DNA from: Desulfomonile tiedjei DSM 6799
GTDB lineage: Bacteria > Desulfobacterota > Desulfomonilia > Desulfomonilales > Desulfomonilaceae
DNA: 64,000 nucleotides
Direction: 5' to 3'
NCBI RefSeq assembly: GCF_000266945.1
Contig: NC_018025.1
Coordinates: 2,542,001-2,606,000, forward strand
The position numbers and the translations under genes are program-made. This document shows, in pieces, positions 60,549-61,850 of the stretch. Positions within the stretch are counted from its first letter, which is position 1. Each line of letters opens with the position of its first letter. The notes below the pieces were generated by a model. That model did no database searches. It was not told the origin of the DNA and saw nothing but the letters and a program-made list of their open reading frames with translations.

Positions 60549-61850
60549 TCAATGTTTTTGAGTGTACTTCGGCAATCCTGGAGGCAACTCACCATATCTG
60601 CGAAGATGACGACTTTCGAGTTCAGAAAGTGACACCCAGTTGGTGAAGCACGAACCCAAGATCATTTTGTCCGCGCTCCGAATGGTCTTCAGAATAGCAT
60701 TGGCTCCAAGTTTGCTTTTGGTGGCGGTTCCATCCAATTCGATCATTAAGCGATCGATTTCCGCCCGTTGCGTTGCAGACATGCCGACCACTTTTGGTGC
60801 AATTGTTCGGTTCACATTGTCCACAGCCTTCAGGACGCCTTTCCCACCGTACCGGTTTTTATCTCCATCACGCAATTCAAGTGCTTCATTCTCCCCGGTA
60901 GAAGCTCCGGAAGGTACAGAAGCAGGTTCACGAAGAGCATTGGCCTTTTCAGAAACGAGGAATCCCACCAGATGGTTTTCTACTTCGCATAATCCACTGT
61001 CAGTCCAAAGTCCTGGATCGTCAATGAGCTTAGAATCTAGTCCCCGGCGAGCCGAGACACAGAAAATGGGATGATCGTTCGATGATTGAGTCTTTTCGGT
61101 TAAGACTCTCTTGAAGAAACCTACTGCTTCTTGCAGCTCTTCGGCACTCAGGTAATCAACTTTATTGAATATGAAGAAGAGCCTGGACACTCTGGAGTGT
61201 ACGTTCTTGAGGAATTCCGCTTCCACTTCGGTAAGAGGTGGATCGGCGGACACTACAAATAACGCTGCATCACATTGAGGGAGAAAATTGAGAGTTGCCT
61301 CTGTGTTATGAGTAAAGGTGGAACCAATTCCAGGCGTATCTATGAGAACGACGCCGTGCTGAAGAATCTGGGCAGGATGAAAAATATCCACATGAAGCAC
61401 ACCTAGTCGATTCTTAGGATTCCCTTTTTCAGTGACGAATCCCTCCAAAATCGAAACCAAATCCTTAAGACTCTCACCTGAGAATTCTCTCGCTGGACGA
61501 TTGTCCTGATAAGATACCCGTACCAAAATCTTGGGACCGTATTGCAGAAAAGTCGGTATGGCCGTGAGCGAAACTACTGAAGTGGGCAGCAGGGCTTCTC
61601 CGAGAAATGCATTGAGCAGGGTGCTCTTGCCACGTTTGAACTGACCTAAAACAGCAAGGTGAAAACGCCCTTCTTCCAAGCGTTCCCGCAGAAATAGCAG
61701 TTTTTCAGAGTCTCCGATGAACTCTGGCCCCAGTCCATCCACAGTCTTAATGGCTTCACCAACGAGAATTTGAAAATCGAGTGCCGCCCTGGATTCATGT
61801 TCAGATGCGGATATTTCACATTCAGAATGGTTGCTCGTTTGAGAATGCAT
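60549..61850 (-). CDS. chimeric protein: dynamin-like GTPase joined to an enolase N-terminal fragment
   Basis: 433 residues. 1 to about 305: a bacterial dynamin-like GTPase domain with G1 GQFKRGKST (69-77), G3 DTPG (171-174) and G4 NKVD (229-232); the helical stalk and membrane parts of full proteins (550-600 residues) are missing. About 310-387: an enolase segment, beginning [20 protein letters not shown] and ending in [11 protein letters not shown] and KSKLGANAI, equivalent to enolase residues of roughly 35-115. It lacks the enolase N-terminal strand and the whole catalytic barrel. The last 46 residues match nothing recognised. The start ATG has a poor ribosome site. It is the first frame behind a fluoride riboswitch, and enolase is fluoride-sensitive and a known target. 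Deletion/fusion is the simplest explanation. Confidence 0.85.

Follow-up and report, generated by a model that had tools for sequence, protein, structure and literature searches.

The window, a stretch of 64,000 nucleotides from Desulfomonile tiedjei DSM 6799, contained a group of co-directional genes behind a fluoride riboswitch. The features were as follows:

61977–62039, minus strand: fluoride riboswitch aptamer RF01734 (cmscan 56.1 bits, E 7.1e-13, model positions 1–64)
61922–61945, minus strand: intrinsic-terminator-like hairpin AACCCACCGAAAGGTGGGTTTTTT, read straight from the sequence
60549–61850, minus strand: chimeric open reading frame of 433 codons with an ATG start
59348–60493, minus strand: intact CPA2-type cation/proton antiporter, downstream (Na_H_Exchanger, E 9.4e-41)
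58899–59327, minus strand: intact universal stress protein, downstream (Usp, E 1.8e-28)

The aptamer (gathering score of the model, 34) sat 126 nt upstream of the chimera start codon, which was preceded by AGAAGGG, and the hairpin AACCCACCGAAAGGTGGGTTTTTT is probably the expression platform of the riboswitch. Downstream, 55 nt separated the chimera stop from the antiporter start. The antiporter shared 78–84% identity with those of three related loci (L010, L011 and L012), and the universal stress protein 76% with that of L011. RF01734 lay upstream of a co-directional antiporter and universal stress protein, and the orthologous operons carried the riboswitch at the same place, as expected of a fluoride riboswitch operon. 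A divergent gene at 62251–63519 adjoined the operon and had weak matches to the LprI and A1S_1983 families at its N-terminus.

Genome-wide, only two fluoride riboswitches were found: the one in the window and another at C1:869519, which precedes a second membrane transporter frame that reads as an antiporter. Searches for CrcB (PF02537) and CLC (PF00654) had no match in the whole genome; both searches were positive in most control genomes. For fluoride export or tolerance, the antiporters under riboswitch control were the only candidates seen in the genome.

Composition of the chimeric reading frame

The reading frame was made up of pieces of three genes, separated by two large junctions and followed by a third lesion:

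60927–61850, minus strand: remnant 1, N-terminal half of a dynamin-like GTPase, residues 1–308 (Dynamin_N), with the G domain intact
60923–60929, minus strand: junction 1, GTPase/enolase, in frame, with ~1.8 kb (versus L119) to ~2.5 kb (versus L121) missing
60684–60926, minus strand: remnant 2, enolase residues ~33–113 at chimera residues 309–389 (Enolase_N; blastn piece 60923–60691)
60680–60691, minus strand: junction 2, enolase/SML, in frame, with ~1.2 kb missing (codon-level comparison with L121 and L123)
60564–60683, minus strand: remnant 3, C-terminal part of an SML protein at chimera residues 390–429 (homology to G009 and L123; alignment)
60549–60563, minus strand: third lesion, a ~10-nt deletion after TAC, giving a frameshift and a new TGA stop (MAFFT with L120, L121 and L123)

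Remnant 1 contained a Pfam Dynamin_N domain at residues 65–230 (E 1.8e-26) with the G1, G3 and G4 motifs of a dynamin-like GTPase, and was 65–77% identical to full-length operonic GTPases of the same family. Alignment to these ~607-aa proteins ended at residues 308–310, so that the C-terminal helical part (the stalk/membrane-binding half) was missing.

Remnant 2 matched Pfam Enolase_N at residues 309–388 (model positions 31–110 of 131) with an E-value of 4e-33, which places the enolase stretch far beyond chance. It shared 83% identity over 78 aa with the operonic enolase of L121. Against the NCBIfam enolase equivalog TIGR01060 the chimera scored 114 bits over positions 31–110 of 425, below the cut-off of 300 for a whole enolase. 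Everything before the VPSGAST loop was lacking, and no enolase sequence followed residue ~113, so that the C-terminal barrel, with its catalytic and metal-binding residues, was absent.

For remnant 3, chimera residues 388–430 were 70% identical to G009:C312:15074-15202, and the DNA at 60639–60564 matched L123 at 75% (blastn). The last chimera residues, TQKH, come after the frameshift in the SML part.

The sequence-only reading had described an in-frame fusion of a GTPase (residues 1 to about 305) to a genuine enolase segment (about 310–387) under the fluoride riboswitch. The fusion, its regulatory setting and the nature of both parts, including the authenticity of the enolase segment, held; the ends are corrected to ~308 and to 309–~389, and the third gene, at residues 390–429, had been overlooked.

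The parent operon in relatives and the origin of the pieces

Relatives of the GTPase part were taken from a species-representative genome collection (Desulfomonile-labelled and other MAGs). A fluoride riboswitch lay upstream in all six loci examined (L010–L015). Among same-family relatives the fullest form of the operon was L011/L121, in the order: riboswitch, GTPase (607 aa), two proteins of the 237-aa type, enolase (425 aa), SML (139 aa), antiporter, and universal stress protein. L010/L119 had the order: riboswitch, GTPase, one protein of the 237-aa type, enolase, antiporter, and universal stress protein. No enolase was present at the operon position in L120, L123, L124 and L125, and the L126/L013 operon had MutS-like genes. 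These enolase-less and MutS-bearing variants indicate that the operon is modular.

A full-length dynamin-like GTPase was the first gene after the fluoride riboswitch in L010–L015, L120, L124 and L128, and the lineages with this arrangement included an Omnitrophota MAG. A related operon at L013:12003-15606 and 18381-20024 had a pair of MutS-like genes behind a second riboswitch; its SML gene was followed by membrane subunits of the formate-hydrogenlyase type (identified by eye). Two further protein families recurred in the fluoride operons. The ~240-aa protein, with no Pfam match, was found beside the GTPase or the enolase and carried the motifs SPGEIHFLWWFIQGSIMNPSTRERLRKAWGMCERHAWGW and CLMCEEGYG with conserved CxxC-like cysteines. 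The SML protein (139–170 aa, no Pfam match above cut-off) was found before the antiporter. Copies were located at:

L011:5848-6558 and L011:5067-5798 (tandem): ~240-aa protein
L010:11758-12507: ~240-aa protein
L013:15910-16662: ~240-aa protein
L011:7949-8368: SML
L123:4003-4419, minus strand: SML
L012:13441-13920: SML

A search covered 60 genomes, comprising that of the window, a single congeneric genome, 16 from the same family, and others more distant. Outside the genome of the window, GTPase and enolase matches were separate and the fusion itself was absent. In a six-frame check of every fetched locus, both parts occurred in one frame only in the copies of the window locus. An apparent match in L026, from residue 274, proved to be an ordinary enolase.

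Elsewhere in the D. tiedjei genome the nearest matches were a full-length GTPase paralog (677-aa frame, 68% identity to the GTPase part) and an enolase (424-aa frame, 64% identity to the enolase piece). An origin of the enolase piece from this housekeeping enolase was disfavored by its 64% identity, versus 83% and 77% to the operonic enolases of L121 and L119, respectively. Trees of the short enolase fragment gave it no firm placement; its most likely source is the enolase gene that stood under the riboswitch in this operon. The paralog was likewise disfavored as the source of the GTPase part (68% versus 77% and 74% to operonic GTPases), and in the GTPase tree the paralog paired with a copy from G001 (97/97) with the window sequence outside that pair. 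Relocation of the missing genes was rejected: the 237-aa gene had no match elsewhere in the genome, and SML matched the remnant alone, with no full-length copy elsewhere.

Junctions, constraint and the fate of the chimera

At junction 1, blastn placed window 60928 at L121 position 2690 and window 60923 at L121 position 5225; in L119, positions 4064 and 5846 flanked the gap. This gap removed the GTPase sequence beyond its N-terminal half, the 237-aa gene(s) and the opening ~32 codons of the enolase. At junction 2 the enolase match stopped at window 60691 (L121 position 5457), and the next residues aligned to LTVRSADRMI of the L123 SML, ~1.2 kb further along in L121. The SML match then ran to PGLPKY, after which ~10 nt were gone, the frame shifted and a TGA stop followed at 60551–60549; in the alignment another frame carried on the SML sequence past this lesion. 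All three remnants were collinear with their parent genes, the intervening sequence was missing, and the parents were intact in relatives, the pattern of remnants left by deletion. By eye, no junction microhomology was seen beyond a few bases, in comparisons with distant relatives.

The reading frame is thus very likely a deletion-made chimera, formed of the remnants of three fluoride-operon genes inside an ordinary fluoride-responsive operon. The ancestral operon would have resembled L121: riboswitch, dynamin-like GTPase, ~237-aa protein, enolase, 139-aa SML, antiporter, and universal stress protein. Comparison with relatives shows a first deletion linking GTPase codon 308 with enolase codon ~33, a second linking enolase codon ~113 with SML at about residue 70, and a loss of ~10 nt that shifted the frame of the last SML codons. 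When present, fluoride would stabilize the aptamer and block the terminator hairpin, letting transcription cross the chimera and reach the two intact genes behind it, for the antiporter and the universal stress protein, which would be the functional output of the operon. A frame left open to within 55 nt of the antiporter may spare these genes from transcriptional polarity. Both large junctions were in frame, with a chance of ~1/9 by frame alone; this is modest evidence that an open frame was favored, perhaps through selection against polar effects at the antiporter.

Two accounts of the fragment had been offered by the sequence-only reading, which pointed to homologous operons with separate genes and to an enolase elsewhere in the genome as comparisons; both were found. 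Its deletion account agreed with the related operons as to the loss of the stalk, the enolase start and the barrel, and had missed the loss of the ~237-aa gene, the fused SML piece and the frameshift. Its other account, retention of the fragment as a domain, gained nothing positive: no relative had the fusion and the N-domain sheet residues were missing, although the conserved residues had not decayed.

Conservation was counted leave-one-out, with the conserved columns defined from the remaining rows. The G domain kept 97 of 98 conserved columns (exception, P94S) and the enolase piece 37 of 38 (exception, Q362R), in both cases no worse than intact relatives. Amino acid identities of the G domain were 77.8% (window–L119), 74.2% (window–L121) and 77.4% (L119–L121); those of the antiporter were 84.3%, 81.9% and 86.9%, respectively. 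On these identities the G domain is not evolving faster in the window lineage than in relatives. The retention of conserved residues indicates either that the deletions were recent relative to the separation of the genera or that the G domain is still used, and one genome does not separate recent deletion from continued use.

In an AlphaFold2 model built with an alignment, the G domain was good (most residues at 70–90 or higher) and residues 310–433 fell below pLDDT 50. Modeled alone (22 rows), the enolase/SML part had a mean pLDDT of 47.7 and no strand; this part is thus without a confident model, and low confidence is in itself no proof of disorder. In enolase, the sheet of the N-domain is built from the stretch that precedes the VPSGAST loop, and the active site lies in the barrel. 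With the sheet residues and the whole barrel missing, enolase activity of the chimera is ruled out by anatomy, as most of the enzyme is absent. The chimera is probably a remnant without function; at most it would act as an isolated G domain.

Retention of the chimera as a gene, in which a fluoride-induced isolated dynamin-type G domain has gained the enolase and SML pieces as a new C-terminal tail, is unlikely. The single open frame across three remnants, the intact G motifs and conserved columns, the lack of acceleration in the G domain, and the AGAAGGG upstream of the ATG all fit such a gene. They are set against a fusion seen in no relative, 124 C-terminal residues without a confident structure, an enolase piece lacking both its N-terminal strands and its barrel, an SML end truncated by frameshift, and a full-length GTPase paralog in the genome. 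Less likely still is that this stalk-less G domain with its enolase/SML tail is expressed on fluoride and kept for answering fluoride stress. If it were used, its nucleotide pocket might, e.g., sense metal-fluoride mimics of phosphate.

An assembly artefact, with one or both junctions as false joins and the full operon on the true chromosome, would account for the occurrence of the fusion in one genome only. However, the chromosome was a single 6.5-Mb contig of a genome 99.99% complete; the other genome matches were paralogs only ~70% identical, with no near-identical repeat to cause a misjoin; the 237-aa gene and full-length SML were nowhere else in the genome; and it would take a coincidence for a single gene to collect two in-frame misjoins together with a small indel. 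Such an artefact is very improbable. An ancestral GTPase–enolase fusion family since lost by relatives, for which the in-frame joining and nothing more speaks, was rejected as next to impossible, since no relative carries such a multi-domain protein and the parent genes are whole in relatives, down to the very stretches that the chimera lacks, so that entire genes would have had to be rebuilt.

The deletion-made chimera would then represent a fluoride-resistance operon that sheds protective enzyme modules and keeps its riboswitch, antiporter and stress protein, in a genome without a CrcB or CLC match. Annotators should call the chimera neither an enolase nor a fusion enzyme. Of greater use is a by-product, the operon conserved in the relatives, in which a riboswitch is combined with a dynamin-like GTPase and two protein families that had no above-cut-off match in Pfam. 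No description of such an operon turned up in literature searches, and the word GTPase is absent from PMC11139923 and PMC5533749.

Comparison with known systems

An additional enolase and a universal stress protein are known from other fluoride operons, and the eno-uspA-ppaC operon of Enterobacter cloacae FRM is a tested example, in which fluoride induces the enolase 176-fold (PMC5533749). Enolase is often riboswitch-controlled, and Na+/H+ antiporters rank directly behind exporters in how commonly they occur (reviewed in PMC11139923). The parent operon resembles that of E. cloacae FRM in its extra enolase under a riboswitch and its universal stress protein; the E. cloacae FRM operon differs from the window in having a full enolase, CrcB and a pyrophosphatase (PMC5533749).

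The G domain resembles that of the bacterial dynamin-like protein PDB 2J68 (residues 47–234 match 54–243, E 2.9e-26), which has 695 residues, whereas the chimera is without all of the GTPase past residue ~308. Another close likeness was to the family operons L121/L011 and L119/L010, in which the riboswitch, gene order, GTPase N-terminal half, enolase stretch, antiporter and universal stress protein are collinear and homologous with those of the window, as is the SML C-terminus; there, in contrast, separate full-length genes encode the GTPase, the 237-aa protein and the enolase, as well as SML in the case of L121.
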